DNA from: Cliona cf. orientalis
Taxonomy: Eukaryota > Porifera > Demospongiae > Clionaida > Clionaidae
Direction of reading: 5' to 3'
DNA length: 64,000 bases
Assembly: GCA_963930775.1 (NCBI GenBank)
Contig: OZ005696.1
Location: 5,146,001-5,210,000, forward strand
Position 1 is the first letter of the stretch, and each line of letters opens with the position of its first letter. The position numbers were made by a program, and so were the translations under genes. Below the pieces are notes generated by a model. The model did no database searches and was not told the DNA's origin. It saw only the letters and a list, made by a program, of their open reading frames with translations. This document shows, one piece after another, positions 2,907 through 42,400 of this stretch.

Positions 2907-5900
2907 ATGTAAGTCGACTCTTGCCTGACCCAGATCTACCTACTATTATTTTAGTATAATATATTATACTTATGATTAGACCTAATATGGTGTGTTTAAT
3001 AGTCTTGAATGATGGCATCTCCGACGATGCATGCCTCGTGATATGATGCCTCATGTGCCTGTGTATAATAATCACTTGCAGGAGTGAGACAGATAGATTA
3101 GTGACAGTCCAGGAGAAGACTGATCAGGTATGTCAAGTGTAATAATGTATAAAGCACAGTCTCACATTGCAAATCCTTCAGTCTTGTCATTGAGGCCAAG
3201 AGAAGTGGGGTCTGATGACCATATATGTATGTGTAGTCTCGCGAGCCAGGCCTTTACATGCAAAGGCCAGGGGAAGGTCTGGTGACATACATATATGGGA
3301 GCTGTATCAGTGGAACGTATGGAAAGTGATTTTTGTTGCATCACAAACCGCAAATGTGTGTGCGAGCTCCATACAAACAACTGCATAGAAAATGGAGCTT
3401 CAATCTGGCCTATATAAAAGCAGCAGCTGGCACTTCAATTATTCAAGCTAAGTTCTCTCTAGCTTGTTGTTTGAGTGTCATATTTGAATGAAATCGAATG
3501 CCCAAGGGTATGTGGCCAAATGTAGCAAGAACTTACAAAGTTTGTTGGGATGAAGTGGCGTATAGCGCCCATTCCTCATAGTAATTAAGAGAATTTTCTC
3601 TTTCATAAATGAATGTACAGGAGTGCAGAACCCTCACCGCTACACGTATGCATGACTCATGCACGTGTAGATCTATAGCATGTCTCAATGTGTATGCCTA
3701 TTCAATATTGGGAGTATTGATCTAGCTACATACCACATACCCTGCACCTGAACAGGGTTCTGGTACTGTTTTCTTCAGAGTCAGTGGGAGTAGGGGGAAG
3801 GCATCTGGCTATGTCACTATATAAACTGAAAGCCTCTGTGACCTACTTAAACTGAATTATGCGTTTGAGAGCCACTGCCTGTTTACTCCGTCACTGCATT
3901 GATCAGCAAGGCACAGAATGTAGGCGCCATGTAAATACAGACTGGCAACATGGGCAGTGACCACTCTTCTCTGATTCCTGGTATACATTGAATGCGTACT
4001 TTCTCTCAGACAACCCTTACCATTTAACACAGAAGGGTTGGGATGGATGGACGACGGATGGACAAACAATCGCCAAACGATTGCAGTAACCCTCCGCCTA
4101 CGCTTTGTGGCGAGGGTTAAATATTATAATGCTTTAAGCTAGCTTAGCCTGTTAAAATTAATCATTACTGCATCTTTAATAACTACTGTAGATCGGGATA
4201 TTTTCACTGGTAAAATTTTCACTTGTAAATTTTCCACGTAGTCTAAATTTCGTCGCCAGACTTTAGCGACCAAAATAGGTATAGGTCGACATACATATCT
4301 CGCGTGTTTAATTTTCATCGGAAAAGGTCGTTGACGAAAAATGTTTAGTGGTGAAAATTTGCATCTACGGTATACTGAGTCACCATTTTTGTGGCAAAAT
4401 CAAGGTGTGCACTAACATTGGAATGCACATAATTATTCGTTCTATGTGGTCCTTACCAGATTTTGGTAATTGTCACGAACGCGGGTATATGCATGTCTTG
4501 GGACCTTCCCTTTTGCATGTGAAGGTCTGGCTTGTGAGACTACTGTATGTGGGGGTAAAATATTCAGTTCTGTTATCATCGTGTGCACAAAAATTGCCAG
4601 AGCTCAATGATAACTTGCCACCTGAGGGAGTTGTATAAAGCACAAAAGATTTTATCGAGTCTGGTGAGAAGCTGGCTTCACTATGCTTCATTACCCCGCG
4701 CGCATGCGCAAGGGGTAAAGTAATCGGTTTTGTCTGTCGTCTGTCGTCCGTCTGTCGTCTGTCTGTCGTCTGTCGTTAGCACAAAAATCGCCAGATCTGG
4801 AGATCTAGGCGTCTGAGTGACTCGTAAGTACAGCACATCCGTCGATATCGTCGAAAAACTGGCTTCATTATGCTTCAAATCATTTGGTAAGGTCCACGAG
4901 CGTCGCAAATACTGCATTTTGTTGGCCACGCCTATCAACACTACCCACCATGTGCTTTCTGCTCATGCGCACAACCTGGCACAATTTGTAGGTAAAGGTC
5001 GTCAACTGACTGCCGGTTGAGTTCCAGCTGTCTCATATCGACTATGATCGACGCTGCAGTGCGCGCGGGGTATGTGCTCTAAAGAGCTCTAGTTTGATAT
5101 GGCATGGCCCACTAATATCTCAGATACAATGTAGTTGTTTTTGTTAGCCACTGTAGCCACAGTGCCTATCGACCATGCTTACTGCAGACCATGTACTTTC
5201 TGCTTATGCACACATGTCAATTGACCTAGTACATGTACATGCACATGATGTACATTGTATATTATGTAGGTAAAGGTTGTTAATAATCCGTCACTGCCAT
5301 CTCGTCTCTGTGCAGCAGCTGTAACATATGCATGGGGTGTGTGCTCTAGAGAGCTCAAATTTAAGTTTTTATGTGTGTGTATGATATACATTGGTATTGA
5401 GTTGTTACTCCCTGTGCAAGTACATGACATAATATTATTATGATAAAATTGATTATCATAATAGCTTGTTGTACTCACATAATAATAATAATAATATGAA
5501 CGTGTACATGTACATTGAAACAAATGAAGATCATCTGTGGACATTTTAACTGTTCGGTAAACTTGCCAACGTTTCAGTGCAGATAGTAACTGAAAATGCT
5601 GTTACTTTATCATTACTACATGTATGTCATGTACACTTTTTTGCATGACATTGCATACAGGCAACTAGAGTGGCTCGTGAGAATCTTGAGAAGGTTATCA
5701 AGCGAGGAGACAACTTGAGTGATCTACAAGATAGAGCAGGTACAGCTTGTTTGTGTGATGCATACTCTCTTGAGGGAGGCAGTGATTTGGGATTGCAAGC
5801 GTTACAATACAGACAGTAACAGTGTATGTATGTTGACCAGAGACTGTTATTGTTTTCATGTGCAGAAAGCTTACGGCTGACATCAGCACAATTTGATGCC

Positions 5901-8900
5901 AGTTCCAGAAGACTAAATAGAAAGCTATGCTGGCAGAATATTAAGGTATGCCCTGATGAAGCTTACTACGTCAAACCAGCTATCTGCACTTGTGTTCAAT
6001 GGCACCAAACATTAAAGTCTTACTCTTAATGCCCCTCCCTCCTGCAGTTATGGATCATATTACTGTTTGTGTTGGTTGTTATTCTTGTGATCTTAATAGG
6101 TGAGTGACAATGTTGCCTATGATTATGTATTGTGTGTTATCAAGAGTTTACAATAGAAAGAGAGTGGAAAGTATCGCACTAGTATTGTTTTACTGTGTGT
6201 GTGTGTGACAAAGACTGGTACTGTATGTGTGTGAGTGTGCATGTGTATGGTTCATGTGTGTGTGTACATGTACATAATAATATTATTACAGTAAACTCTC
6301 TATTAACGGACATTCCCAATAACAGACACTTCTATATGTACCAACTGAAATCTCTATATTATTACATCCCGAAGTCCAAATCAACAAAAAGAATTCGGCT
6401 CTTGCTATGATGAAATTATGATGAAATTTATGATGAAACGGTCAAACCTGTGATGTAATTGCTGTGAAGACTGTTTTAAAATGTTTAGCACACATGAAAG
6501 CTTGTTGGGGCTCAGAATTCGAACCTAGCGTAGAAGAGATCGTGGACTATCGATAAGATATGGCGATTCTCTCAGTTCACTTTCTTTGGTGAGCTTGTAC
6601 TCGGGGGGGATTTCCCTATTCAGTCTAGCACATGGCAGGTGGAGGTCATGTCAACCGGCTCAAGCTGCGTGCCCCAATATTCGTGTATACGGAGCATGCG
6701 CAGTTTGTCGATGTGTCCTAGTTCGAATTATGGCTGCGTACATTAGCGTGGTATAATACTTTTCATGAGGGACGAGGGATGTAGTCTAAGTGTTTCATTA
6801 CGTCCCGAGTCCCAATTAGAAAAAAAAAAAAATTCGGCCAACCTATGATGAAATTATGATGAAACCTATGATGAAACCTATGATGTAATTGGAACACTGC
6901 TTTAAAATGTTTAGCTCGCATGAAAGTTTGTTGGGACCCAGAATTCGAACCTAGCATAGAAGATATCATGGGACTATCGATGAGATATGGCGATTCTCTC
7001 AGTTCGCTTTGTTTGGCGAGCTCACACTCGGGGGGGATTTCCCTAGATTCAGTCCAGCACATGGCAATGGAGGTCATGTCCGGGTCAACCGGCTCAAGCC
7101 GCGCGCCCCAATGTATGCGTATACGGAGCATGCGCAGTTTGTCGATGTGTCCTAGTTACATGCCCAGTAGCAATTTACTTTTCTGTGGTTATGAAAACTT
7201 GACCACTTGCCCAGTAGCTGCATGCATAATGGTTCATATGGTAAAAGGTCGTCAATATAGTGCGTACACACATTGATACTGGCGCCTCAATCGCAGAGAT
7301 GGAGTCTGAGAGTCGACCGCGGCCTACTCTCGACCTCGACACTGACAATTTTCAATTACAGGAGACGAACTCGACAGCTTCTGAATGTCAGGTTAGTCGC
7401 GGCATGGCACACAGCGTGCGTGCTATATATAGCACAAGGCTAGCTAATTTATCCACGGGATTACGTCAGCCAAGAGAACGCATGAAGTTCGGCCGGCGGT
7501 ACTTCGCAGAGAAAGTAGCGCTCAGCTTATAATGTATTCGCTGGATACATGCGTCAGATACTCAACATATATACCGATTTTCAAGTCTCAAAAAGGCTCC
7601 ACGGAGGCCCTGAGTTTTCTGGCAATTACCTCATAGATTATGTCATCATTACCTAATAACCGCAGAAAAGTAAATTTCTCACTGGGCAAGTAATGAGGTA
7701 TTATAGTGTAATGTATGATGAAACCTATGGTGTAATCTATGAGGTAATTGCCAGAAAATGCAGGGCCTCCATGGAGCCTTTCTGAGACTTGAAAATCGGT
7801 ATATACATGTATGTAAGAGTATCTGACGAATGTATCCAGCGAATACAATTAAGCTGAGTGCTACTTTCTCTGACAAGTATCGCTGGCCGAACTTCACGCG
7901 TTCTCTTGGCTGACGTAATCCCGTGGATAGATAAAGCTAGCCTTGCGCTATATATAGCACACATGCTGTGTGCCATGCTGCGACCAACCCGATGTTCAGA
8001 AGCTGTACGGCGCTGTCTAGTTCATCTCCTGTGATTGAAAATTGTCGGTGTCTAGGTCGACAGTCGGTCTCAGACTCTATCTCTGGGATTGAGGCACCGA
8101 CATCAATGTGGCTTATATGTAGACTGTGTACTCACTATATTGACGACCTTTTACCATATGAACCATTATGTCTGCTACTGGGCATGTGGTCAAGTTTTTC
8201 ATAACTATGTAATACAATATGAGCACCCAAATAGCAGATAACCTCCAATCCGGACAACGGACACGGGCCACATGCAGTGACATAACTGTATGCAGTGTTC
8301 CGACTAATGGATGGTGGGCGGGACTAGGAATTACCACGCCCCTTTCAGATTGCATACGCTAGTCTAAAAGACTGCATGTGCATTATGATGCCAGGTGTGT
8401 GAATGGTGGCAACCCTCTTTCTGTCTGTATTGACATGGATGATGACCAATAGGATGGGAACTTTCCAGATAGCTTCATCAAAGAAGTACAGTGGACTCTC
8501 TATTAACGGACACTCCCAATAACGGACCTCTACCAAATAACGGACACTGCTATATGTACCAACCGATATCTCCATATGTTTAATACAGTAGCAGCACCTG
8601 AATAGCGGACAACCTCCGAATTCCGGATAACGGACACAGCAGCTTGCACGAAGTAATACAGTACTATGCAAAAAACGTTCCGACTAACGGACGGCGGTGG
8701 GTGAGGCTAACCCCGCCCACGACCGTCTTGCATGCAGTTCATGGCATTATTAACAATCTGTACAAAAATAATAAGACGGCAATACATGTAGACACTAAAA
8801 AAACGGTAGCTGGTACTTTGTCTAGCTATAGTAATGACAACAGCCACTGCTTTACTTGCTCAAATCGAAAGTAGCTAGCTAGCCATTCGTCCACCATGAC

Positions 8901-10432
8901 GCAATTGACACTCGTCTAGTAGATCACTTCCTTGAAACAGACTGAATAGTGCAATACAATGTCATGAAAACACTTGAGTAGCTATGTCATGAATTTCTTT
9001 ATAACAATGAACTATTGGCTATAAAATTAATATTAGATGAAGTGGGGGGTGACTAAGGTAAAACACCCCAATAAAGGACATACCCCGAATAAAGGACAGA
9101 AGCCTATGTACCAAGGTGTCCGTTATTCGGAGAGTCCACTGTAGAACCTACGGTACATGTAGCTAGATCCTGGAGATGAGGAAGAAGAATTCAATGTGCC
9201 CCAGGATACTGGCTTCCCTGGGCTAATCAGAATTTTGGTGGATGCATGAACTTTCTGTTGATTCATCAACTTCAGTTGGAAGACCATGGGTGTTTTGAAC
9301 TGCTACATCTCTGCTGACCGTGACTCAAGTGACAAGCAGTCACCATTAAAAAGATGTAGTTAACACTTAACCACTACTTCAAAATAGCACAGTAGTAACA
9401 TAAGTGTCATGAGTTTTCTTTGTAAAAATTAGTTTAGACGGAGTGGGAGGTGACTAAAACATTGTATTGATGAATGGATGAGATCATATGAAACAAAGCT
9501 ACTGTGTTTATGCAAATAAAACGCAAGATCTAATTAGCTCAAGAAAATTTGCGTTCCGGGACTTCTCATAATAATACCGTAGAATCCCGCGATTACGCCC
9601 CCCCCCCCCTTTGTGCACGTTAGGATTGGGCAAAAGTGGGGAGGGGGCTTATACGCGGGATCCTAACATTTCCGTGTGACGACCATTACCGACCGAAGAA
9701 TATCACGTGGGCGCGCGATCTCTGTACTTTCTCTGGTTGTTTGGTGGGCAAAACTCGAGAAAAACGACAATGTAAGGCATATTGTGACACAAATAGCTAG
9801 TTTGCTAGCTGTAGCTACTGTTTTTATTGACTTATGGACCCCATTTTACAGTCAGGGAGGGGGGCTTATACGCGAGACAAAACTACCTATGCAAGAACTT
9901 GAGCTAAAAATGCAGGGGGGGGGCTTATGCGCGAGGGGGGGCGTAATCGCGGGATTCTACGGTACATGTTATGTGGAGTGTGACGACCTTTACCAGAAAA
10001 TCGTGCTAAAATTAAAATCGTAACTATTTTTTAGCTTGCGTTCTATTAGCATAAACACGGTATATGCCGTACTTGTTTTTATGGAATGCATGATCCAATT
10101 TAACGTGTGTGTTTGTATGATTGTTGAGCTTGGATGCTAGCTAGAGTATGTAGCATACGTTGTATATATTATCCTGCACTGGCTGTTAGTTTGTATGCAT
10201 ATTCATTGTGTATACATGTACTACCATAGTTGAGGCTAAGTGTGATGTGAGTTACATGTAATTGCTCATCCTCTACAGCTATAAACAACAATATACATTC
10301 CTTGTGATTGAGCTATGATACATGTACAGATGTATATCACGACTGAGTCCTTTGTAGTGTGATGATAATAATTATTAATCTCTATTCCTTGTAGTGGCCC
10401 TTGTGGTTGCAACTCGCAAGAATAAGCAGTGA
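2907..10432 (+). CDS. VAMP-A: R-SNARE (synaptobrevin/VAMP8-like), 98 aa
   Basis: Small tail-anchored R-SNARE expected to drive vesicle fusion by pairing with Qa/Qb/Qc SNAREs. Coding parts: AT of the start codon at 2907-2908, then 3082-3127, 5661-5739, 5866-5945, 6048-6099 and 10395-10432 (TGA). The start codon is AT|G, split by an intron with donor GTAAGT. The product starts MSETDRLVTVQEK. The SNARE motif runs through ARENLEKVIKRGDNLSDLQ; its zero-layer Arg is codon 5703-5705. A juxtamembrane segment RRLNRKLCWQNIK, a C-terminal anchor of about 20 hydrophobic residues (LWIILLFVLVV...) and the tail ATRKNKQ follow. Length and layout match VAMP8-type proteins (about 100 aa), with no N-terminal longin domain. 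The last intron (6100-10394) is swollen by transposons. Exon phases are shared with VAMP-B, C and E. Placement in the R-SNARE family is secure; the exact subfamily is inferred. Confidence 0.88.
3128..5660. other. VAMP-A intron with dispersed repeats; no gene seen
   Basis: A repeat beginning GTAGTCTCGCGAGCCAGG near 3232 recurs inverted near 4500-4545 and looks like the ends of a hairpin MITE family. A TCTGTCGTC-rich microsatellite lies at 4728-4777. The segment 4780-5100 contains ATCGCCAGATCTGGAGAT and recurs diverged at about 52580-52740. The part 4900-5100 is duplicated nearby at about 5180-5360 (shared GTAGGTAAAGG and TGTGCTCT.AGAGCTC blocks). No exon-like sequence is seen. Confidence 0.5.
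6289..8350. mobile_element. Truncated TA-flanked pogo/Tc-like MITE interrupted by a 1.85 kb insert
   Basis: The left end at 6287-6360 reads TA then CAGTAAACTCTCTATTAACG with repeated CGGACA-type subterminal motifs, matching the left end of the intact copy at 8489-9141. The match stops near 6360 and resumes near 8211 (AATACAATATGAGCACCC), continuing to about 8345, where CCGACTAATGGA corresponds to CCGACTAACGGA in the intact copy. The right terminal repeat is missing. The intervening 6361-8210 is a later insertion. Confidence 0.7.
6361..8210. repeat. Insert made of a tandem duplication and a 1 kb foldback palindrome
   Basis: Two diverged direct copies at about 6361-6723 and 6797-7157 share ATTAC.TCCCGA, TTTTAAAATGTTTAGC, CAGAATTCGAACCTAGC and ATATGGCGATTCTCTCAGTT. 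They are followed by an imperfect inverted repeat: left arm about 7170-7640, right arm about 7720-8210, sharing GGTCGTCAATATAGTG, ATTTTCAATTACAGGAGA-type and CCGTGGAT-type blocks, with a loop near 7640-7720. The insert starts ATTACAT and ends ATGTAAT, a possible short terminal inverted repeat. ORFs here (7260-7532 and others) are mirrored in both arms and look like by-products. Confidence 0.65.
8489..9141. mobile_element. Complete TA-flanked pogo/Tc-like MITE
   Basis: Ends CAGTGGACTCTC at 8489 and GAGAGTCCACTG at 9141, flanked by TA at 8487-8488 and 9142-9143. Both ends carry multiple subterminal CGGACA/AAAGGACA-type motifs. It has no transposase ORF. The same element, inverted and carrying a large insert, occurs at 57263-62482. 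Assignment to the Tc1/mariner-pogo supergroup rests on the TA target duplication and terminus style. Confidence 0.85.
9500..10062. mobile_element. MITE (TGTTTATG ends) carrying a nested MITE
   Basis: The left end ACTGTGTTTATGCAAATAAA and right end GCATAAACACGGTA are inverted. Internal blocks GATCTAATTAG, GACCTTTACCAGAAAATCG and TTTTAGCTTGCGTTCTATTA match the uninterrupted copy at 40674-40852 in order. A second MITE (9577-9962) is inserted in the middle. Lies in the last intron of VAMP-A. Confidence 0.85.
9577..9962. mobile_element. TA-flanked MITE with 26-bp perfect terminal repeats, nested
   Basis: Starts CCGTAGAATCCCGCGATTAC and ends with its reverse complement, GTAATCGCGGGATTCTACGG. TA dinucleotides flank it at 9575-9576 and 9963-9964. 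The interior contains C and G runs and GGGGGCTTATACGCG motifs. The ORF across it is not credible as a gene. Confidence 0.88.
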
Positions 10433-11236
10433 AGCTGCAGGTATATAATATACTTCACCGGATGACGAACTTGATCACATCAGATTGTTTCAAACTGAGC
10501 TGCATGTGTGTGCGTGTGTGTGTGTCTATATGTTCCCACAGTCTTACACTTTTTCATTATTATTTTTTGTCCACTTTATCCAATGCATGAGAGTTTGTGT
10601 GAATGTATCATCTTGGTAATGCTGTATTTGTGTACATGGCCTGCACTGTACCATGATTCTGTGTGATCATTAATACTATAAAATTCTTGTCGACAGTCAT
10701 TTATGTGCACTACGCTTGCTATTCCATGATTATCTTTAGCTCTGCCAAGTGGATTAAACAAAACTGTTAACCACAAAAATAATGTGAGCTACACACAGTC
10801 ATAATACTGAACCTAGCTTATGGTTTATTGTTTGTACAGGTATATAGGAGCCTGTATGCTATATATAAACGTTATAGTTGCAGCACAATGTCATGGCCTG
10901 TAGCGTTGTGTGTAGGGTTTATGGCTGGTAGTTATTGTCTTGTTGGTTATTTGTTCAGGGCGTGTATAGCAAACTGGTATGCTATATGACGTATGTTCCC
11001 TTCCATGTTCCCAAACAGCATAACTACACTCACTTCTAGTGCTTTACTCATTTCGTGTATGGCAGTGAACTTATATTATCAGTTGTTTTTGCAATCAACA
11101 ATAACAGTTTCAGTCAGTTAGAGTGAAGCCAGACTACGTAGTCACAGCTAGAATACTGGACATTTGTAGCTTGGCCTGTGTAGCCACTCTTGAAGCTAAG
11201 ACTGTGTTTTGTGAAAATATTGACTACAATACAGTG

Positions 11237-13177
11237 ATGTAAGTTTATCAGTATGGCAATGAGTATTAGATGTGTAGCTACTGTACATACACCAAGTGTA
11301 TGACCACATTATGCTTCAATGATACACTAGGGATGAGCCAAAGGAGACAGACAGACTGACACAGCTCACAAGACAAACCCAGGAGGCAAGAGGATTACAT
11401 TTGACCCAATAATAGAATAGATTTTGTTCCTTGCCATACATGTATACTGTGTGAACAATTATGAAATTATTATACTACACGTGGCAGGTGAAGGGAATAA
11501 TGTCACAAAATATGGACTTGATGATGCAGAGAGGAGAGAAGCTTGAGCATGGCTTGGATAAAGTAGGTAAGCAGACAGACAGATGTGCGACGCGTCACTA
11601 ACTTTTGTATAGGCCTCCCATGATTCTTGATAGGCAAGAACCCGAGGTCATCTGGGACTGGGAAGAAACTTTTGAGTACAGGTGTCTTTGAGGCCTTCGG
11701 AAAGTAGTCTGTAGCTTCTTTCTATTATAATTTTTATAAGGCATACTGAAATGGCATGAAAAATTTAATCTCAATTGGCATGCAGAATTTGATGAGTGGC
11801 TCAGTGCTTCCTTCCTTTATCTGCCCTCCCCAACAGCCACTTACTCTAGTCTTGCGTAATCAGATTGGTTATGTGATAGTGGCTATTACATTAATTTGTC
11901 TCTGCCTATGTAATACCGCAGGGTGGAAAATTAGTGTGTAGTAACTCAAAGACTTTCAGTATAATTAGAGTCAGACATGGTATTTACACATGTATGTCTC
12001 ATTGCCAATGTTGGATACTACCACAATAATAATATTATTATCTTTCCATTTCACAGAGGAATTGAGTCAAGCATCTTCTCAATTTAAAACAACATCAAAA
12101 AAGCTGGAGAAGAAACTTTGGTGGAAAAACTTCAAGGTCAGCAACAAAGTTTAATAGAGTCAGCGAGCAAATTTGCTATTATGGTTTATATAATAGTTAT
12201 ACCATAGCAAGTAGGAATTTTATCTTCGAAAACTACCCTGATCACGAGGGTGGAGCCTGAGTGAGAGGGTATATCCTGCTTCACATTGCATAGCTATATA
12301 TTATTATAATAAGATATCTTGTAATTGCCAATTACAAGTTTATAAGTAGTGCTAGAGGGATTTATCAGACCACAAGCAGATTTATCACCACCCCTGTTGC
12401 CTAGGTTACAAGGCTAAGTATTCCAATAATAAAAAGTATGTATGTGTGTTGGGGGGGGGTATAGAAGACAAGGCTGCAGGTTTGATACGGGAATATAGGC
12501 ATGCATACTATGTAATTTCTTGTAATAATCTTTTAGCGGTGATCAAGGTTGGAAAGTTTTATTTGTGGTGGTGGTGGTGGAGGGGGGAGGGTAGGGGTGC
12601 ATGGTAAACGGAGTTTTGTCCCCTCCCACTGAATGTGATCTTCACTGAAACTGAAAGTCCAAATGTGCCCATAATTTGCATGCATGTCACAGATTGGCAG
12701 CCCTGCTCAGACCTGGCTGGTAGTGATACTGCTATTGCTCTGTATTATCAGAATCATTTTCATCTCCAAACAGCTATGGGTGATCTTGGTGATCATACTC
12801 AGTGTCTGTCTCGGAGTCATTGTCGTTGCTATTGTCGGTAAGACAACCAAGCCCAATCTAAAGTTGCTGTGATTTCATAAAAATAATCCTGCTTTGAGTG
12901 AATATTTGAACCCACGGTGTAGTTTTCTGTCACAGAAAATGATTATACTTCAATGGAAATCATCACATGTGTAGGCTGGATCTGTTGATAGCCTCTGGTA
13001 TTGGCATTGATGTCATTTTTCCACCTACCAACCCCATTTTCATAGGCTTTAATAGCTGTTTTGACGGATTTGTGTAATGCACGTACAGTAATAGTAATGT
13101 TATTGTAGACAGGTAACTCTTCATTATACTTAAATCATTCTGTAATCATGTTAGGTGCAGTACTTGGAACCAAATAG
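11237..13177 (+). CDS. VAMP-B: R-SNARE (VAMP8-like), 100 aa
   Basis: Coding parts: AT at 11237-11238, then 11331-11385, 11488-11566, 12057-12136, 12774-12837 and 13155-13177 (TAG). The start codon is AT|G (donor GTAAGT). The second coding exon can stay in frame only with a GC donor, GAG|GCAAGA at 11386. The product begins MDEPKETDRLTQLTRQTQE and continues VKGIMSQNMDLMMQRGEKLE; the zero-layer Arg is codon 11530-11532. This is the copy most like VAMP8 (DR.., VK.IM.QN, RGE.LE). Then FKTTSKKLEKKLWWKNFK, a TM anchor LWVILVIILSVCLGV..., and the short luminal tail AVLGTK. Exon sizes 55/79/80/64 match VAMP-C and nearly match E. It is the most canonical member of the array and the most likely to be fully functional. 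Confidence 0.9.
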
Positions 13178-13648
13178 TGAGATCATTATCTTGGAGGCGA
13201 TATTATGCAACTCTATAATATTATGTACATGTATGTAAATGGAAATTAATGTCATATCATCCTTGACCACTACCTCTAAATAGTCCTGCTAGTTTATTGT
13301 ATTAGTATTCATCTCAGTTTTTAACGTCACTATAATGTACCATGATGTCGTAATGCTGTATAATCGTCTTGTATAGCCACTACCATTATTATTAACTATA
13401 CCATCCATGGCTAAAAATTGCAAGTTACAGTAAGCTAAATAGTTACTATGAAGTCTCTCTCTCCAGCCTGATCGAAAGGCAGATAAGGTTTATTACAAGG
13501 TGCTGTCAGGTATGATTGTTACCATACCAAGTAGCTAAACAGTAGCAGTTACGTATACGTGACTAGATCTGGTACCGGTCGGTAGGTGGAAAAGTAATGT
13601 AATACCTATAATGTAACTCAGCTCAGCCCTGGAACATGCTATAGACAT

Positions 13649-13720
13649 AGCCTCATCCCCAGTCTCCCCGATCTTTTTCAACGCACGCGAGAAAAGATCG
13701 GGGAGACTGGGGACGAGGCT
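13649..13720. repeat. 29-bp-stem hairpin MITE
   Basis: Left stem 13649-13677 and right stem 13692-13720 are complementary with one difference; the loop contains ACGCACGCG. The stem contains CCCCAGTCTCCCCGATC. The style (short perfect stem, CGCACGCG loop) is shared with the hairpins at 21026 and 21505. Confidence 0.75.
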
Positions 13721-13847
13721 GCTATGGACATAATTTAAAGACCAGCAGATAGAGCATTAATATACATGTTCCTGAATTTTCAATTTCACTTTCATTGTCA
13801 CAAAATTAATGTCCTTGTCAAAACACAGAAGCCACAATTATGCTATT

Positions 13848-13924
13848 GTCTGGATGGTCTAGCGGTTAAGCTCTGACTTCCAAGCAATATCAAATGCACG
13901 CACCAGTTCGAATCCTGCTTGGAC
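13848..13924 (+). tRNA. tRNA-Gly(TCC)-like sequence, degenerate; pseudogene or SINE head
   Basis: An A-box-like TGGTCTAGCGGTTAAG, an anticodon-loop-like CTTCCAAGCA and a B-box-like GTTCGAATCC occur in the right order, followed by CCCA and a T-run as in a Pol III terminator. The outer ends pair weakly (GTCTGG with TTGGAC). The anticodon and T stems pair poorly, so I doubt a functional tRNA. It may be the head of a tRNA-derived SINE. Confidence 0.35.
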
Positions 13925-14265
13925 CCATTTTTTTCCCAACTTTTTTCTTTCACTGCCAGTGATGGTTTTTTTTTTTAAATATAGGATTCAAGTATAGGCA
14001 AAGCCACATTTTGGTCAGCAGCTACAGTAACTATATATAAAAATTATATAGTATGGGAAAAAAGTTAATAATCAGTGTTAGCTAATCATGCAGAATGCCA
14101 TCAAATTGAATACGATTATTGAGGCTAACAATGGCAATAGTATTCCACTTCAATTTAGGAATAGCCAGCCTAATGCAATATTTTCTCGCTATTTCAAAGG
14201 TACTTTTTTCTACTTAGGATATGGTTAGTCTTCTTGTAAATATTAATTATAATAGTATACTTGTA

Positions 14266-14806: not shown

Positions 14807-14932
14807 TACTTTGATGTGTACAAATCTTGTATACCAATTACAAGTATTACAAGTGAAATAGGCACCTGAGTTTGAAATACCCTTCTGAGTTGAAATACCT
14901 ATCTGACTTTGTGTATGGATACTATTAGCCGG

Positions 14933-15086: not shown

Positions 15087-15229
15087 ACCTATACTAATGC
15101 ATGACTGGTGGTGGTGAAAACAAGTGAAAGTGAGTGATTGTTCATTTGCACAATCGGCTATATTATATTATAGCCATCTATGTAATTACTCGCCACAGCT
15201 GTGTGCAATGTTTTGGTTTGTACCAGATA

Positions 15230-16047: not shown

Positions 16048-17380
16048 ATGTTGATAGTCGTATAGAGTCTTAGATCAAAAACGTTAACAGTGACTGCATG
16101 ACTATAGCTATAATAATTCCATGATGCACGTGGCAATCATGGTTACACACATGATAAACTAACTTATGCAATATCAAAATTAACTATAGGAATGAGGCAA
16201 AGGAGACAGACAGACTGATGCAGCTCAAGGGACAAGTCCAAGATGTGAAAAGTCTTTGTTCTCATGACATGCTACCAGTAAGAATGTGACATATTTTGGT
16301 AGGTGAAGGAACTAACGGCACAAAATCTGAACTTGATAAAGCTAAGAGGAGAAAAGCTTGAAGACGGTTTGGAGAAAGCAGGTAAGGTGGATGTATACAG
16401 CTCAGATATGTGTCAAATTGCCTACAGGCCTGTTGTTCACATGTAGTACACTATCAAGACTTAATTAGTATAATATTATTAGTGCTAAAAATTATTAGCT
16501 GTCAGGCATACTAACTATTAAATTTATGCACATGCATGATTAATAATTAAGTGTTGGCGAATCCTTAGGTACAAGTATGTGGGAGAATATATATTATACT
16601 CTAAAATATTGTGTGCATGCATGGGTGTGTGTGTGTGTGTGTTTGAAATGTTAATAGCAGTGCCTGATTGAGTATTATATAATATTATTTTAAATACCAG
16701 CAAGATCAGTGAGAATGAAGCAACTGACTCCCTATTAATTATGGTTATTATTATGCTCCGTATAATGTAGTTAACCATAGCAGTTTCATGACAGTAATAA
16801 TAATAATCATAATATAGAGGGAGTTCCTGTTATGTACGTAGGACAAAATTATAAGGTTCTGAAGTGTTCCGGTCATCAGGGGAGAACCCAGTCTGATCCT
16901 TACTGGCACAGGTTTCAGTCCCATTAATCTCCCGACCTGTGGTCAGCTACAGAAAGGGCGGGACCACTCCCCTACAAGGGGTCTGGTAGTATGCTCTTTG
17001 GTGCACTTTGGCTTTCTTAATTCTTCTTGTCACGTGACAAGCTCACTCTATGGTATGTGTCACATGCTTGTGACCAACTGCACATACCTCTGATTCTAGA
17101 TATCAGTATATATGTAGGTGATACTAGTGTGCAGCAAACTGTTATTACCTTACAGTAAGTTGCTATTATGCTAATATGTTTTCATTTGACCCATTATCAC
17201 TCCCTTTGTATCTAGCTGTGCTATGTAGATGTATTTGATCGAGTAACCCATTACCCTTGTTCATTATATTATAGTATGTATATGTATGGATGTGTGCATC
17301 TGAGTGTGCATGTGCATGTGTGCTGTGTATGACACTGTTTCGCATTCTGATACTTAGCTACAGTCGGTCATGACAGCTTA

Positions 17381-17416
<36 letters not shown>

Positions 17417-21209: not shown

Positions 21210-21270
21210 CCAGCCGAGCTGGGTTCTGCATCGTTACGTGAATCGAGTTCGAGTGACTACCTGATTAAAA

Positions 21271-32481: not shown

Positions 32482-34999
32482 TTTGCATAGGTGTTAACCA
32501 TCTGCTTTATCAAATCAAACGGTGATATGTAGTACTATTTTTCTTGTGCAAGTTTGTGACAGTTTGATAATTCCATTATGCTGCAGCTCCAAAATTTGAT
32601 TTTCGTGGTTCAAAATTTTCATGAAATGGCAATTTTTTTGATAAAAAGTTCGTGATTGCCGCAAGCAAGAGTATTACCGCAAGAGAGAGAGATAAAAAGG
32701 AGACAAGGGGGGAGGGAGGGAGATAGGGAGAGAGAGAAAGGGAGAAAGGGGGGAGGGAGGGAGATAGGGAGAGAGAGAGAGAGAAAGGGAGGGAGAGAGG
32801 GAGAGTCTAGAGAGAGTTAGGCAGGGGCGTAAGAACCATGGGGGCTCCGGGGGCTGGTGCCCCCCCCCCCTATGTTTTCGGATAGTTACATAGCTAGACT
32901 CAATTTTATACACACTGATCATACTGCCCTTGCCTATAGATCTGTAGAGCCTCCCCCTTTACCAAACTATCTTCCTACACCCCTGTTAGGTGAAGTACAG
33001 AGGTCATAACAAATCATTCCTGATTACGATGGCGCCACATCTGAGTTGGCCTCAGCATAGTTGCTCAGGAAGAGATAGACCAGCTTCTTCTGCACCAGGT
33101 CATGCAGTTGTGGCACCACAGAGTATGAGTGAAGGATATCATATTATGCATACATAGTACACGGCCGGTTGTTAGTTGTGATAAATGAACAGAGGGGGTA
33201 CTAGCAATGTAAGGAGTTCCCTATACACTAGCGAGAGGCACCTTAATTAGAACGGATACGGTATATATAGTATTTTGCCAGTCTGTGACATGCATCAACC
33301 TATCGATACTTGCAATTGAGAGTAACATCATGCATACAGGTGTCTGATCGTCGCCCCTCAGCCAAACTTTCTTCTATTCCCCCCGCCCCCAGCCCCCAAA
33401 TATTGATGCATAACCCTTGTGTATGTATTCTTCCAATTATCATCATCAGAAAAATTAATACGACCTCTACAATATTGTGATCATAAAATTCAGTAATCAA
33501 AGCCACACCCACAACTTGTATTGGTGGCCTCTGCAACAAGCAATTGCTTCCTACTATACTCCACTGTGAATGATTTAACAGGAGTAGTTTTGTTATCTGA
33601 GCTGAACTGAGAAAGCTCAAGAAACTAAGCCATGCACCTCATAATCACAGGACTTCCTCCTTCCTCAAATCATTATTGTAATGCCACATACAAATATAGC
33701 TAGCTATCTTTCGACAGTATTGATAATACTATCCAAACATTTGACAGTGTACTTACTATAATATACAGTACTGGTGATTTGAGAATTATATTGCTATTAT
33801 GCACCTAGCTATAACATTGGCATGCACATCAGGGTTTCATCCAGCTTCTCTTCCAAAACACCCAGTTTCCCCCAAAGAGAGAGATAGAGAGAGGTGGTGG
33901 AGGAAGGGGAGTGTGTTATTTTTTGTGCTGCAATGCAAGTGATTAGTAGCTATAGTATAGCTACATTCTGGTCATGGTTAGTTATGTTGAGGTTCCTGGT
34001 ACTTAAACAAGTTACATATGACATTCAATTATGTGCATGAGTATAAACTAAACCAATTTATTTATAGTGCAGGTGGCTGAAATTCACAATATCATAATTA
34101 TATAGACTATATAGTTATACTATGGTACATATTGCCCTCTATCATGATTATTAGTGTCCCCGTTATCAGTGATACTGAGTGTTGACCTTATATGGAGCAG
34201 CCGACAAGAGAGCTCAATTTTTTGCTTAATCCAGAAGAAGTGATGCCACTATAAAATTAATTGGGCTAAATCTATAGTAACACAACTATAGCATCTAGAA
34301 TTTCAATCAACTCTATTCCAGTAAATTAAGGGGTAAATTATATTGAGAGATATATGTGGTGTTCTTGATTAGCTATGTATTGGCATGGGGAAAGGCTATT
34401 CATACACAATTTTTAATACTCAGTCTGGGGATTTTGATGAAATTATTCCTCAACAGGCTATATATAGGGGTGTATAATCCCTTAGTTAAAAGCACTAGAT
34501 AAACCACGTAATATCTCAGTGACATCCCAAAATACTTTTTAATCAATATCAATGGTTAATGGGTGGGGGGGGGGGGGGGGGGGGGGGGACACGGTGCGTA
34601 AAATTGCCACACCCACTTCTCCCCCCCCCCCCCCCCATCAATCTGAGATGATGCACACTTGGAAAGAAGCATACTGATACAGTTAATCTTTTTTTATGTC
34701 TCCCATCACTTCAGAAAGCTTAATAACTTAACTTCCACTTCAGAAACTGTGCATAATTCTATATCAGATTCTACAGTTCTCATATTATTATGCTAGTGGA
34801 GCAGATTAGCGATGATGTTTATGATATTGGATCCACATGATGCAGAGAAAATAATCAAAATTATCCTGTGATTTGATATAAAGTGTGACATATCACACTC
34901 TGAGTCAGTGTGCTGCTGTTGCTTGATCTGCAGCTGAACATAGCAGCTAGCTATACTAGCGCTAAGTTATGAAACATGGCAACTGATTGTAAACACCTG
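32482..34999. repeat. Gene-free stretch with GA-rich and homopolymer tracts
   Basis: A GAGAGGGA-rich microsatellite spans about 32682-32815. A C-run lies near 32862. A run of more than 20 G at 34565-34588 is followed 32 bp later by a run of about 16 C (34621-34636), which could pair. No exon signal between the end of the death/Roc gene and VAMP-D. Confidence 0.7.
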
Positions 35000-36686
35000 A
35001 TGTAAGTAGCATGATAGATATTTCTCTTATAACTACTCAGCATTAATAAATTAATAGAGGTTGAGATGAATCATTGTAATAGTTGTGATCATAATATGAC
35101 TTGTTCTCGTATGTGTGTAGAGGCAGTGAACTCAGTGAACTGCAGATGGACGTTTCAGAGCAAGCTAGTGAGGAGGTATAGAACTAAGATGATAAGTGTT
35201 ACTAGTTACATTATCCATTCTGTAGGAGGAGGAGAGGCTAATGACTCAACGAGATAGCAGTAATAATTTATTAGGTATATTGATTATTATGATAGTCTTG
35301 TATCCAGACCCTCTTATTCCACAGCACTGGAGGTATTGCATCACCAGACATGTGGTCTGAATACGAGATTATGATAGTAGCGCACCACCGTGATAATATT
35401 ATTATTAGTTATATCAATCACTATGGTGGCCCAGAAGTGCACTCGTTTCAGTCCTCAACTCAATCCTGATTCTGATTCTCTGATTCGATTCTTAGATTCT
35501 TATTTGTAAGTGGATTCTGATTTTCTAAATTGATTCTTAATATTCTGATTAATTCTCTAATCAGAGTTCTTTTACTGGCATAATATCATAGAGAATGTGA
35601 ACAGGTAGCCACACCCATTGGTTTTCTATTGATCTCCAGTCCACGAAGATAGAGCAGAAAAGATCTCAGGCATTGCTAAGGATTTGGTTACCTCCATTCT
35701 AAACAAGATGATGGGACCAACTCTTTTGGGACACTGAGGTTATCCCACATGCACTAGCATGGTAGCTACATGTAAATGTAATCATTGTGTATGGTGTAAT
35801 ACACCCAGGCCATCCCATGTTTTCACCGTTAATTGCAACGTTGATCAATATGAGATGGTTTGCTTTGCTAAAAACCAGTAAAATTAATGGGCTTTTCCAT
35901 TTAAAAGGCATACACCCCCCATTGAGGATTGACAATTAAATCCAGAGGGGGCTGTTTCTTGATGATCTAGTTGGCAATGATTGGTCTATGGGCCTCTTCT
36001 GGCAATTTTAATTATTAATCTTGGTGGCATTAAAAATGTTCCCTATAGCTACAGGTCCTTTAATAGCCCAATGAGAATCACATTAGAGAATCAGAATCCA
36101 CTTACAAAATCGAAATAAGAATCTAAATAAGAATTGAATCAGAGATTCAAAAATCAAAGTCAAGTCGGAGAATCAGAATTAGGATTGAGTTGACGACCAA
36201 AATGAGTGCACTTCTGGTCCACTGTAAATCACACATAATATTATAATTGTGATTTATACGATGTCATGTTAGCTATTATCATGTCAGTAGCCTTTTGCAT
36301 GGTCAGTATTCCTCCATGTAGAGAATTTGAGAAAAGTGCATAGGATCCACAAAAGTCAGGAACAAGAACAACAGTATTCATGGAAGGAGTTTAAGGTATA
36401 ATAATGTATGATATTATTATGCCTTAATTGCAATTGCTTGTATGCCAAAATAACTCCTCCTACATGTATAACTCCATGTATAGCTACTCCTTAAAAAACT
36501 ATGTGATTATCTTCACAGAAATGGGCAATTTTGTTGATCATACTAGCTCTGTGCTTTGGAATTGTCATACTAATTATTATTGGTAAGCTAACATGATATT
36601 ACTAATTATTTAGATGACATACAAATATACCAATCATTGTGTAATTATTATTATATCCTGCAGTCTTAGCAACCAAGGGTGGCTGA
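35000..36686 (+). CDS. VAMP-D: divergent R-SNARE-like gene, start codon altered
   Basis: Exons by homology: AT at 35000-35001 (donor GTAAGT), 35121-35175 (55 nt, same size as in B and C), 35226-35274, 36322-36395, 36519-36582 and 36664-36686 (TGA). In A, B and E the first base of the second exon is G and completes ATG; here it is A, giving ATA. The first in-frame ATG is at 35146-35148 (MDVSEQASEE), giving about 79 aa. The SNARE motif is shortened: one exon is 49 instead of 79 nt, the next 74 instead of 80. A zero-layer Arg is still present (MTQRDS, codon 35250-35252). The juxtamembrane region is Gln-rich (SQEQEQQYSWKEFK). The TM anchor is KWAILLIILALCFG..., tail LATKGG. The reading frame is open, so it may be expressed, but fusion competence is doubtful. 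Confidence 0.65.
35423..36224. mobile_element. MITE with CAGTGGACCAGAAG-type termini in VAMP-D intron
   Basis: The right end ATGAGTGCACTTCTGGTCCA is the complement of the left end CCAGAAGTGCACTC. Both flanks carry AGAATC/GATTCT repeats in opposite orientation (35465-35570 and 36085-36190). The left tip has diverged. It fills most of the intron 35275-36321. Confidence 0.78.
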
Positions 36687-37199
36687 CTCATCACAAATAT
36701 TCAGAACTATACAGTACTTGTCAAAATGCTGAGTGATACTGCATTATATATAATATATTCTTATTACATGCATGCAGCTGTATACATGTAGTTCTATTAT
36801 GTGTGCACATGTATATGTGCGTCTATCTCATCCCACAGGTATAATAATGTATTATAGCTCCTTCCAGGTTTACATGTACCCACATTTTCTTGTGTGCTAT
36901 AATTATGCATACCAGTACTGTACGTGTGTGATCATTCAAGTTTGTCAATCAACATGTCATTGTCATTGTCATGGTGATCCATTTATGGAGCGTGAGCAAC
37001 CACATTCTGGGTATCTGATAGCCACTATACAGGAAGTGGTATAGTAGCTATACAAACTTCATGTGGGCAGCCTCAGATTGACAAGGTCCATATGGGACAG
37101 TTGAGTGTATATTGAAAATAGCTGATTTTGCACAAATTGTCAACATCCCAGATTCTGGACTGAGTCTGGCATAATAGACTGTGATCTTAGCTATTCAAC

Positions 37200-39221
37200 A
37201 TGTAAGTTCTGTACAGCTAGTGATCACTCTTTTCAAGATCTGGTGCTTTGTCACCCAGTAGCTACCTAACTACTTAATGATCAGCTTCACAATGAATTCT
37301 GTAGGGACACAGAACCAACTGAAAAAGACAGACTGACGGAAGTCAACCAAAAAGTTGACCAGGTTTGTTTTCATTCATGATAATAATAGCAGCACAGTGG
37401 TCTATTCATAAATATTTAAGGTTGCTAAATGTATACTGAGTGGCCTGCTTGTGAGTGGCCACATAGCTAGATTATAAGCCTTGTACACATCCTTTTAATA
37501 CTAGGCCACAATCCCGCAGTTTGCCTTCCACCGTTAATTGAAGTTGGTAATAAGGCTAGCAGTGGTACTCCGTATCAGCAAGAAAACTGTATGGGTGTAT
37601 TAAATAATAATCATTATCCATACGGTAAGCCCTTCTTCATGACCATGCAGCCTGTAGGTATAGTCCCTAGACACTCCTTGCAGTACTTATTACACACGGA
37701 AAGCAGGTCCTGGAGGGCCCGGGCCCGGCATGAAGATAACCTCACTTTATGCTGACATGCACAGTGTACCTGTGCATGTGTACCCCTTTGTGCCATGGCT
37801 AACCATACCCATCTGTAGGACTATGAAGATTCTAGACATTAGCTACTCTCTTGGATGAAGTCTATAGGACTCCATTACAGTCAAGTGTCCTTAGGATGCT
37901 CTCAACTCATCGGATATGGAATAGCCATTTGGTTTGGCTTATAGCTAAGAGGCCATGGACACATCCTATTATTGTATATATTGGTCACATGCTATGTTAT
38001 TCTTCCAAAAGTATTTAGCTGTGGTCCTTGTATCGATCAGGTATAGATTAGATAACTATAATATTCCTAAACCGCTTAGTCCTTGATTACAGTGGGCTTT
38101 TAGCAATCGAGTCAGGGAGGTGGGTTAGCCCACAGCAGGCTCTTCTGTGCGAAAAGAAAAGATCACGATGAGGGGGATAGCCTGGCATGAGGCTTATATG
38201 GTGACAATACATATTAAATTTTTCGTTCTCCTGGTAGGCCAAGAAGATAATGCAGCATAACATCGGACTTGTTATTGACAGAGGTGTGGAGTTAAATTCT
38301 TTAGGAACTAAAGCGGGTAGGGTGTATAATATAATTATGTAGATTAACTTCATAATATTTCTATACAAGCAGGCAATTTGGAGAACGAAGCTAAAAAATT
38401 CAAGAAAAACGCTGATGATTTGAATGCAAAAACTTGCCGAGATTATGTCAAGGTTACTATTGTAGCTATAGGGAGGTTGGGACATGTTTGGCGAGAATTT
38501 ATGCCCATGCATGCATAGTGGTACATCAACCACTAAATAGCTGCACTGTGACTAAAGTGAATCAATCAGCATTTATATTATAACTTTATGCAGTGGTGGG
38601 TTTTTCTCCTCATCATCATTGCCCTCATCGTGATTGTGATTGTTCTGGTGGTGATAGGTAAGAGGGCTTATCCAAAGTCCTTGTGGAAAACTTAACGTCA
38701 TTATGACGTTAACGTTTTACCCCCCTCCCCCCCTCTCTTAACGTCACAGCATTTCAACAGTTCAACTCTGAAACTCTGATTCTGCTCCATTTAGCCTACA
38801 CATTTGGTATTCACTTGTATTCTACAGTGCTAGCTATATGTCTTCATGGATTCATTGCATACTTGTGCTTCTTTGACAGTTTCTTGCTTGCCTGTAGCTA
38901 CGTGTACACTTTTAGCTACGTAGTGCTTGACACAGCCGTCACTAAAATGCAAATTTTGACACTGCTGGAGGCATGTCTAGACTTGATCAACCACAAGTCT
39001 TAGAATGCATAATCACAACTAAAGCGCAGGTCTGCTGACAATACAGTTATAAAACGTCATGGACCAAGACCCCCTCCCCCCTCCCAACGTCATAATGACG
39101 TTAATTTTTCCACAAGGACTTTGGACAAGCCCCCTAAGTCTGTACTGATAAGTGTCTATGGTGACCTTTAATATCTTTGCTCACTGCAGTTTCAGTGCTT
39201 GCCACAAGAAAGAGTACCTAA
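37200..39221 (+). CDS. VAMP-E: R-SNARE (VAMP8-like), 104 aa
   Basis: Coding parts: AT at 37200-37201 (donor GTAAGT), 37305-37362, 38238-38316, 38373-38452, 38594-38657 and 39190-39221 (TAA). Split AT|G start. The product begins MDTEPTEKDRLTEVNQKVDQ, then AKKIMQHNIGLVIDRGVE with the zero-layer Arg at codon 38280-38282. Then FKKNADDLNAKTCRDYVK, TM anchor WWVFLLIIIALIVIVIV..., and tail VSVLATRKST, resembling VAMP-A's ATRKNKQ. Exon sizes and phases are those of A-C. The last intron holds a MITE (38664-39134). The stop is only 264 bp before the start of IFT74. Confidence 0.88.
38664..39134. mobile_element. MITE with CTTATCCAAAGTCCTTGTGG termini
   Basis: The left end TCCAAAGTCCTTGTGGAAAA is the complement of the right end TTTTTCCACAAGGACTTTGGA-type sequence; both continue into AACGTCATTATGACGTT, itself palindromic. 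It lies in the last intron of VAMP-E. Confidence 0.82.
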
Positions 39222-39309
39222 TAACTATTGCTTATTGTTTGCCTGTAATGCTATTGTTGTGAGTGTTTGTATTTTGCAAATTTGGTGTATTATCATAATT
39301 GTGAGCGAA

Positions 39310-39321
39310 TGCGCATGCGCA
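39310..39321. promoter_or_regulatory. NRF1-type palindrome in the IFT74 promoter
   Basis: TGCGCATGCGCA, a perfect NRF1 consensus palindrome, lies in the short interval between VAMP-E and IFT74, about 165 bp before the proposed start codon. Confidence 0.5.
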
Positions 39322-39484
39322 GTTCGCAATACTTTCGATGATGTCATAGGTGACCTAGTTTTGCAGCGTAGTGCAGATCGGCCGTCCAGACGACATATAA
39401 AACTTATAGATATAGTTCCAAGATTTCATACGGCGGTGGATCTATCATCTACGTAAGATTATATCTCAGCTGAAGCCGCTAAAA

Positions 39485-42400
39485 ATGTAAGTGTACAAAT
39501 GTTTTCTTATTAGTGCACATCATACTGTGTGTCCGTTTCCATAACAACCTGAAAATAGTCCGCCATTCTATTTGAACTCACGTCTATTTCCCAATTCGTA
39601 ATCGTGATATATACACTATGCCCCTCCATTCCCTCTTAGGTCTGGCTACAACCCCCTAGGTGCTGGCAGCGTTCGGCGACCACCCTCAGGTGCAATGGGG
39701 ATTCCCCCAGCTGGCGCCCGAGCCCCTTATCGTGCTCCCACAGGTGAAGTGCTTTCCAAATTTTATAATAGTAATGATTATGATCTCACTTTCCTCCTCT
39801 GTTCCATTTCACTCTATTTTGGACAGGAATGGTAAGTTTAGAATGATCCAGCTTGTTTGAAGTGATGTGCATGTATTATTTCCTCCTCAGATGCCGGGCA
39901 CAGGCAGACCAGGTTCACGGGCTGGTGGTGCACAACAAGCTGGAGGTAAATGTTCATACGAAGATGATATTATTTAGAGGCTGGGTGTGGGGAGCACAGG
40001 GATTTTCCCACCCAGAAGTCTACTTTCACTCCTAGATCCTTAGAGTTTCTTAGTACACATAGTATTAGCTAAAGTACTGACAATGTCTGGTTCCCTCTCC
40101 TGAAGAATCAGCAATTGATAGTCCTGTATTAATCCTTGGATACCGTATGCTATGTATTCGATGGAATAAGTTGTTATCAGTGTGACAAAGGTTGCCTTGC
40201 CTTTTCAGAGCAGATTATATAATTATTGAAAGTTGCCCTGACACTGTCAGACCAACACCAATGTTGGCCGGACATGATCTGACATCAAATTATAATATTA
40301 TTATGGTTCCATTTACATGTAGCTATATACATACACCCAGATTGTGTGTGGAAGTACTGTGTACATAGTGACAGTATCAGCTAGCCTATTAGTGGTGTAC
40401 CACAAAGTGAGTGTTAAATACTATTGATGGGGAACACCTGCTCACTTAGTAGTACAACCCATTGACCTCAGTCTAGCTTTAGTATAAACTCTGCACTGCA
40501 GTGCACACTGGACTGTACTGTGTATTGTGAAGGGACATTCAGAAGATCAATTGACCGGACATGTGACCTTTTGACCCGGAAAACGGGTAATGATGTGCTC
40601 TGCTTTTATTTTTGCTGATGAGAATAGAAAATTAGCAAGAATTTTTCTGCTGGAAACATTCCTGTCTGTACGTTACCGTGTTTATGCTAATAAAACGCAT
40701 GATCTAATTAGTGCAAGAAAAATCGCGTTCTAGGATTTTTCATAGTGTATCTTAATGGAGCGCGTGACAACCTTTACCAGAAAATCGTGTGAAATTTAAA
40801 ATAATAATTATTATTTTTTTTTAGCTTGCGTTCTATTAACATAAACACGATATATTATGTTGTTTCTAATGCGTAGCCCTGAGCTCTCAAATCAAGGTGG
40901 CTGACAGGCCAGTAACACAGCAGGGACTGGGTGGAATGAGGACTGGAGCCAAGGGACCAATGAGACAAGTGCAGGATAAATCCTACTACCTAGGATTATT
41001 CAGGTACAATACATGCCACAGTAGAGTCTGAGGTATACAGGTATAATGCACGTACATTGTACATGTACATGTATGTACAAACACACACTGTATGTATGCA
41101 CATGTTTTAGGAGTAAGATCCAGGACCTGAACAGTGAGATTGCTCAGATGACTCAGGAGATTGAGGCCTACAACCAGGAGAGTGCTACCTACCTCACATT
41201 TGAAAAGAGGTTGGTTAATATCCTTTGTATCCCACCTATGACGTAGATCAAAGCTACCGCCAGGGCAATATACTGGATATTGCCCTGTGGCTAAGGCAAT
41301 ATCATGATATTGCCCTGTGGTACAGCTGACTACTACTGGTACCTGGCCCAGTGGTCAGACTCAGACACCACACTTGTAGTGCTATTACAACAGTGGGGAT
41401 ACAAACCAGTTAACACACCCCTACTAGTGCTGTATGGAATAATGCACTCGTGCGTAACCACATACAGCCCTCGGGCTTCGCCCTCGTGCTGTATGTGGTT
41501 ACTGCACTCGTGCATTATACAGTCGAGCCTCCGAACAAAGGACACTTTGGGAACGGGCCTCTTGTCCTTTGCTCGGAGGTTGTCCCTATCTCGGAGGTTC
41601 ATGATTTTTCAACCCATTTTGATTGTATTATCCTTAATAAGTTAGTAAATGCACTGAAATGGCAGTAGAGATGATAATCAAGTGGTTGGTATGTTTTGTT
41701 TTCAGTATCAACATAGCACAGGCTGAATTTTTTTGCTTCTGAAGTACTGGCTACTCCAAAATCGTTATCTGGATTCAAGGCTAATATTATTATCGCGCAT
41801 GCAGCATAATATCGCGACCGCCTAGATTGCGGCAAAGGTGGGCGTGACATCGTTAATTTAAGGTCGTGGTTTCCAGATGTCCGTTATTTAGAGGCAGTTT
41901 TGCATTGAAAAATCACGTTGGGAGCTTGGATCTTGTCCGCTGTCCGGAATCGAGAAGCGTCCGCTTCTCGGAGGTTGCTAATGTACTATAACTATGCTAA
42001 CTTCAATCGGTAACACGGCACTTGTCCGCTGTAGAGAGGTTGTCCGCTTCTCGGAGGGTCCGTTATCAGAGGCTCGACTGTATTCCATACAGCACTAGTA
42101 GGGGTGTATTAACTATAACGTGATGTGCATATGGAAATTAACAAGTACATGGATATAATTATACCACATGTTAAGAACACTTGTATTTTGTTATGGCCTC
42201 CGTCAGAAAAGTAGGGAGAGCACAGTGTGTGTGATTTCATCCAACAGAGGGGCACATTGCAGTAATAAAGGGTACAGTAAATGACTTAGTTGAGAATGTT
42301 CCATTGGCATGTACATGATTATCAAGATTCATGTAGCTTATATAGATCTTGTAAGTCCCAAGTCAAGCAGTGTGGTCAGTACTAATATCATGTTAAACTT

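Follow-up and report, generated by a model that had tools for sequence, protein, structure and literature searches.

AT|G start-codon introns predicted in tandem VAMP genes and an IFT74 gene of the sponge Cliona cf. orientalis

Introns of phase 1 or 2 at position 1, which disrupt the start codon itself, were described as "relatively rare" by Nielsen and Wernersson in 2006 (PMC1626468), and 42 "start codon" introns, in which the 5′ splice site follows one of the three start-codon bases (A, T or G), have been reported from Yarrowia lipolytica (PMC13309789). In the latter, introns near the start codon were the most efficiently spliced, and the genes carrying them were the most highly expressed (PMC13309789). 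Here we describe candidate introns of this kind in the demosponge Cliona cf. orientalis, in which the start codons of tandem VAMP genes, of the vesicle-fusion type, and of a ciliary gene, IFT74, are predicted to be split as AT|G (the bar marks the splice site). The genes lie in a stretch of 64,000 nucleotides (the window; GenBank assembly GCA_963930775.1, contig OZ005696.1, here C8, positions 5146001 to 5210000) of a genome of 216.8 Mb in 149 contigs. Gene models were based on the DNA sequence of this one genome, from which we infer splicing and initiation, that is, the removal of the AT|G introns and the use of their AUG to begin translation. VAMP genes were lettered A, B, C and E, plus a remnant D, within the window and F, G and H beyond it.

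The AT|G layout as modeled here belongs to the known, rare class of start-codon-disrupting introns, sharing the position class of those in PMC1626468 and PMC13309789, from which it differs in being common to a tandem gene family. It also resembles the phase-0 ATG| introns treated in PMC1626468, in that the first coding intron abuts the start codon and exon 1 is almost wholly untranslated, but the Cliona VAMP and IFT74 intron would interrupt codon 1 itself at phase 2, one base further upstream. VAMP-A, VAMP-B, VAMP-E, and IFT74 do not fit the phase-0 class, since exon 1 as predicted closes with AT and exon 2 opens with G; by sequence, these four and VAMP-H fall in the phase-2 AT|G class, which VAMP-F and VAMP-G enter through distant candidate donors only. 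The portions of PMC1626468 and PMC13309789 consulted contain neither gene lists restricted to AT| introns nor the names VAMP or IFT74. Among the papers listed by a literature search that covered few subscription journals and included no query aimed at IFT74, none dealt with VAMP or IFT74 start codons split in this way. Vertebrate VAMP genes, too, have an intron positioned at codon 1 or close to it.

Predicted start-codon introns in the window

The original prediction placed AT followed by GTAAGT at 2907, 11237, 37200, and 39485, with next exons at 3082, 11331, 37305, and 39640 that open with an in-frame G, and all of these boundaries were recovered. In VAMP-A, the putative exon 1 ends in AT at 2907 to 2908 of the forward strand (tgtcaccAT|gtaagt), followed by a first intron of 173 bases (2909 to 3081, GTAAGT...TTGCAG) and an exon 2 (3082 to 3127) that reads G plus SETDRLVTVQEKTDQ up to a CAG|gtatgt donor. 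The corresponding features of VAMP-B, on the same strand, are AT at 11237 to 11238 (acagtgAT|gtaagt), an intron of 92 bases (11239 to 11330), and an exon 2 at 11331 to 11385 (G plus DEPKETDRLTQLTRQTQE) with a GC-type donor, GAG|gcaaga. This apparent GC donor, at 11386, stands alongside GT donors at exon 2 of VAMP-A, -C, -E, -F, -G, and -H. VAMP-E, also on the forward strand, has AT at 37200 to 37201 (attcaacAT|gtaagt), an intron of 103 bases (37202 to 37304), and an exon 2 at 37305 to 37362 (G plus DTEPTEKDRLTEVNQKVDQ). In IFT74 (forward strand), AT at 39485 to 39486 (gctaaaaAT|gtaagt) precedes an intron of 153 bases (39487 to 39639) and an exon 2 at 39640 to 39743, in which G is followed by codons in frame up to the donor ACAG|gtgaag. 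The acceptors were selected by us, and further AGs a few codons deeper are present in VAMP-A, -B, -C, -E, and -F.

When joined by hand, the exons of VAMP-A, VAMP-B, and VAMP-E scored 83.4, 67.6, and 77.6 bits against Synaptobrevin (PF00957; cut-off, 26.4), marking the three as R-SNAREs of the synaptobrevin type, and VAMP-A also matches VAMP2 structures. VAMP-A and VAMP-E reach profile positions 84 and 87 of 89, respectively, and so include the C-terminal membrane anchor; the anchor exons of VAMP-B and VAMP-C were recognized by eye. A VAMP-C fragment scored 23.5 bits, under the same cut-off. Exon profiles built from VAMP-A, -B, -C, and -E were used to search for more VAMP exons, and they recovered the second SNARE exon of VAMP-C. 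IFT74 was named from its later exons: the coiled-coil exons match chain G of PDB 8bd7 (E = 1.7e-10), and the N-terminal exon lies outside the match. Antisense among the IFT74-like exons (~39.6 to 52 kb) is an uninterrupted frame of 481 residues (47700 to 49145, minus strand) that looks membrane-spanning by eye.

The motif ATGTAAGT occurs eight times in the window on both strands combined, at 2907, 11237, 35000, 37200, 39485, 47939, and 52282 on the plus strand and at 45682 on the minus strand. Four of these copies are the noted starts, one (35000) is at VAMP-D, and three lie elsewhere. Under a first-order Markov model, 2.3 copies are expected on each strand and 0.006 in any 174 bases, and the rate taken from the three unrelated sites, with 35000 omitted, is ~0.004 per gene within 174 bases. 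Four such coincidences would have a probability of ~8e-11, a figure that is rough and post hoc because the pattern was chosen first. The excess of ATGTAAGT at these exons is beyond chance.

GTAAGT was found in six of seven start donors (VAMP-A, -B, -E, -F, and -H and IFT74; VAMP-G has GTGAGT, and VAMP-D was not counted) and in none of the 21 other donors listed for the same genes (Fisher test, 1.9e-5), a comparison biased by the choice of the VAMP-F and VAMP-G donors partly by strength and by the selection of GTAAGT-type sites in the original prediction. The 21 are a listed subset of the donors in these genes. Since T at the last exon position fits the donor consensus poorly, the perfect intron side looks like compensation. 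A purine is present at -3 of all four starts in the window: caccAT in VAMP-A, gtgAT in VAMP-B, aacAT in VAMP-E, and aaaAT in IFT74.

Exons beginning with G could, in principle, receive their start from elsewhere. Spliced leaders are added in trans in several animal lineages, and some of these leaders end in AUG; if such a leader were joined to the G-first exons, the local AT|GTAAGT would be irrelevant. Against this, introns of only 92 to 173 bases follow the local AT|GTAAGT and its -3 purine in four of the window's genes, and other genes here have ordinary cis-spliced first exons, for example, ATG|GTRAGT. Thus, we regard spliced leaders as a very improbable source of these start codons. What the boundaries point to instead are ordinary cis-spliced GT-AG introns that would happen to sit at phase 2 of codon 1, and we consider the AT|G models of VAMP-A, VAMP-B, VAMP-E, and IFT74 quite likely to be right.

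The layout across VAMP paralogs

In the original prediction, AT|G was given for VAMP-A, -B, and -E. Its presence in VAMP paralogs held up, and it appears to reach further, to the site at 35000 at VAMP-D, the G-first exon of VAMP-C, and a second cluster formed by VAMP-F, -G, and -H on the same contig, about 180 to 195 kb past the end of the window. With the acceptors selected, exon 2 is G-first and in frame in all seven VAMP genes (A, B, C, E, F, G, and H). VAMP-H has AT|GTAAGT at contig position 5403738, 468 bases before exon 2 (5404206). VAMP-F has AT|GTAAGT at 5393719, 2.26 kb before exon 2, and VAMP-G has AT|GTGAGT at 5395577, 1.43 kb before exon 2, with two weaker candidates nearer. Both of the latter assignments are tentative because the donors were picked by strength over kilobases.

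Pairwise identity among the seven genes ranges from 17 to 89% over 35 residues, so the AT|G position would have outlasted much protein change. In a blastn comparison of VAMP-G with VAMP-H, similarity was confined to exons and exon edges. Among other R-SNARE-like loci, one that is VAMP7-like (L016; type assigned by eye) is intronless across its frame. An R-SNARE-like stretch at another (L018:4779-4844, minus strand; SNIDSMLARGDRLDDLLEKAEDLNCSSTAFYKKAKK) lies within a far longer frame that looks VWA-type by eye, an odd domain combination.

VAMP-C and VAMP-D depart from the full layout. Exon 2 of VAMP-C (16190 to 16244, forward strand) is G-first and reads NEAKETDRLMQLKGQVQD, and AT|GTRAGT is absent from the preceding 3.2 kb. 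AT|GT candidates of lower strength, each with five of six consensus bases, are present there at five places (13229, 13233, 13611, 15180, and 15957); either the start donor of VAMP-C has been weakened or lost or its first exon lies elsewhere. The putative VAMP-D remnant comprises AT|GTAAGT with AT at 35000 to 35001 and, by eye, an exon-2-like stretch at 35121 to 35175 (SELSELQMDVSEQASEE|gtatag), both on the forward strand. The acceptor of this stretch, again by eye, fails to complete ATG in frame. Searches returned weak matches only for the middle exons, and the anchor exon is itself a weak match (E = 0.058 in the exon-profile search); the other exons were assigned by eye. The region from 34900 to 36700 resembles a decaying copy whose later exons seem broken by eye; the second SNARE exon is frame-broken and the anchor exon is open.

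Taken across the paralogs, the pattern suggests an ancestral AT|G layout that is clear in VAMP-A, -B, -E, and -H, probable in VAMP-F and -G, and seemingly decaying in VAMP-D, with no full-consensus donor in VAMP-C. A single ancestral phase-2 intron copied by the duplications would be the simplest account of the VAMP genes, and the evidence fits a separate occurrence in IFT74. Conservation across paralogs, offered in the original prediction as an argument that the layout is real, therefore carries less weight than the number of genes implies: the AT|G position is indeed common to paralogs, but they weigh as one inherited event, to which IFT74 is added. The VAMP genes would then be a tidy example of a rare intron position retained through gene duplication.

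Several observations weigh against this reading, as does a genome-wide motif count given below. Twenty-one codons upstream of the VAMP-A start lies another ATG in the same frame (2844), and no stop intervenes. VAMP-C lacks a full-consensus donor, though by eye no damage is evident in its later exons, which means that either the gene is no longer functional or the layout of the start is changeable. Support for VAMP-D is weak, the VAMP-F and VAMP-G donors could be chance matches, and the term "ancestral" refers to paralogs of one genome. Some of these points would favor initiation at other ATGs, with AT|GTAAGT being a set of 5′ untranslated region or chance donors. In VAMP-A, the frame from the ATG at 2844 is open to the donor, and the first intron holds a further in-frame ATG whose open frame runs on into exon 2 and could be used from an alternative promoter; the failure of VAMP-C and VAMP-D to keep the whole layout points the same way. 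Opposed to this, reading upstream from the start of VAMP-B, VAMP-E, or IFT74 meets an in-frame stop before any in-frame ATG, and the combination of AT|GTRAGT with a G-first frame recurs in paralogs as divergent as those described above. We therefore hold initiation elsewhere to be unlikely and retain the AT|G start as the better model.

Consequences of splicing and retention

Because the intron's GT directly follows AT, unspliced RNA would hold an AUG at the same place and in the same upstream context as the spliced RNA. The claim in the original prediction that translation is strictly dependent on splicing of the first intron needs amending in this respect: the AUG would not be made by splicing, being present in the unspliced RNA with UAA after it, whereas the open frame that follows the AUG would require splicing. 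For VAMP-A, the ATGs at 2844 and in the first intron make other starts possible as well. Under the AT|G model, splicing would join AT to G, and translation would start at that AUG. Were the intron retained, the AUG would consist of AT and the donor G, and the next codon would be UAA (UGA with GTGAGT), yielding Met and then a stop, a minimal start-stop element that splicing would convert into an open reading frame.

All four starts in the window read M* (Met-stop, ATG TAA) when unspliced, and an AUG directly followed by an in-frame stop, which defines a start-stop upstream open reading frame, exists in these four genes solely in the unspliced RNA. In comparison, ATG| genes of the phase-0 class (PMC1626468) would run on into the intron when unspliced. 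An AT|G intron with a GTRAG donor leaves AUG-stop in the unspliced RNA, and the prediction for intron retention is thus silence, not a truncated or read-through protein. This corollary could be used by gene annotators and RNA biologists.

Start-stop elements have been studied in two other systems. The start-stop in the 5′ leader of mouse Hoxa11 can stall ribosomes and repress translation, together with a stable hairpin that also plays a major part (PMC8172242), and the AUGUAA of Arabidopsis NIP5;1 is a start-stop that can stall ribosomes, with mRNA decay (PMC11915504). Retained-intron RNA of the Cliona genes would resemble the Hoxa11 TIE (PMC8172242) and NIP5;1 (PMC11915504) in carrying an AUG and then a stop. 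However, the Hoxa11 and NIP5;1 start-stops are elements of the mature 5′ leader (PMC8172242 and PMC11915504), whereas that of VAMP and IFT74 would be one only while unspliced and would share its AU with the main start. Any translational effect of the unspliced AUG-stop in the VAMP and IFT74 genes is a prediction from their sequence.

A stronger proposal is that AT|GTRAGT is a conserved fail-safe, in which unspliced VAMP and IFT74 RNAs initiate and terminate at once, so that intron retention acts as a tight off-switch for translation that has been selected across the tandem SNARE cluster. The M* reading of the four unspliced starts, the repression seen with start-stop elements elsewhere, and the persistence of the layout in diverged paralogs would all be expected of such a switch. 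However, the same in-frame stop would also arise from 11 of the 21 ordinary donors listed for these genes, so the Met-stop is mainly a consequence of the donor consensus and the stop is largely automatic; the Hoxa11 element, moreover, works together with its hairpin. Intron positions can also persist for a long time without selection on position. We consider a selected switch improbable. Silencing of the unspliced RNA would follow from the donor consensus, and a special device would be unnecessary.

Start structure elsewhere in the genome

The presence of AT|G in IFT74, a gene unrelated to VAMP, had been taken to suggest a wider habit in this genome. We sampled the start regions of conserved genes, 70 in all, excluding IFT74 and the VAMP family and naming genes after the query proteins: 30 loci listed for 64 matches, all 11 of 11 LSM matches, seven UBE2 stretches (six chosen from 50 matches and one from the first set), eight proteasome places (seven stretches and L012, chosen from 22 matches), and 14 ribosomal stretches of 20 matches. 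Forty starts were readable by eye, and 30 (12, 8, 3, 4, and 3, in the order of these sources) were excluded because they were inner exons or were ambiguous or unresolved. The sample is biased toward conserved short proteins, and one locus (L070) sits on an 18-kb contig that may not belong to the animal.

None of the 40 readable starts was AT|G and none was A|TG, a result that permits an AT|G rate of up to ~7% (95%). An uninterrupted ATG was found in 32: four alpha-tubulins, EF1A, five ARF genes, four Rho/CDC42 genes, and one cyclophilin from the first set, plus three LSM, four UBE2 (one on a small contig), four proteasome, and six ribosomal genes. The remaining eight carry a phase-0 ATG| intron and comprise two alpha-tubulins (TUBA), calmodulin (CALM), RPL3, RPL37A, RPL37, RPL27A, and RPS4. 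Detection of ATG| introns in these TUBA, CALM, and ribosomal genes shows that the method does see first exons. Start-codon introns therefore recur in this genome, in the classical phase-0 form, with ribosomal genes weighing heavily in the count. Among the starts set aside, those of a PSMB3-like gene (L079), RPS8, and RPL5 have an intron that falls at codon 1 or adjoins it, in a form other than AT|G.

Genome-wide, ACCATGTAAGT occurs 132 times versus 252 for the reversed control, and ACCATGGTAAGT occurs 16 times versus 45, in counts that mix starts with inner donors. The ACCATGTAAGT count falls below that of its control and gives no sign of a large AT|G class. Inspection of 8 of the 132 ACCATGTAAGT loci identified none as a start, and two of them (L055 and L056) look by eye like donors within repeated coding units. 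AT|G as a genome-wide habit is thus not supported by either the 0 of 40 sampled starts, set against 8 of 40 with ATG|, or the motif count. Where AT|G genes do occur, gene finders that insist on an unbroken ATG may miss them or assign a wrong start.

In several of the sampled genes, an intron appears to end immediately ahead of the ATG or within a few bases of it: RPL8 (cag|ATG; L090), RPL27 (ctag|ATG; L096), RPS15A (gcag|CCATG; L088), and a cyclophilin (gcag|AATG; L040). In this small sample, introns crowd both sides of start codons. Elsewhere in the window, the stretches at 57735 to 58391 and 59808 to 60464 look nearly identical in translation and lie in opposite orientations ~1.4 kb apart. 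They are likely copies of a repeat element, with a 218-residue frame in one copy that is interrupted in the other.

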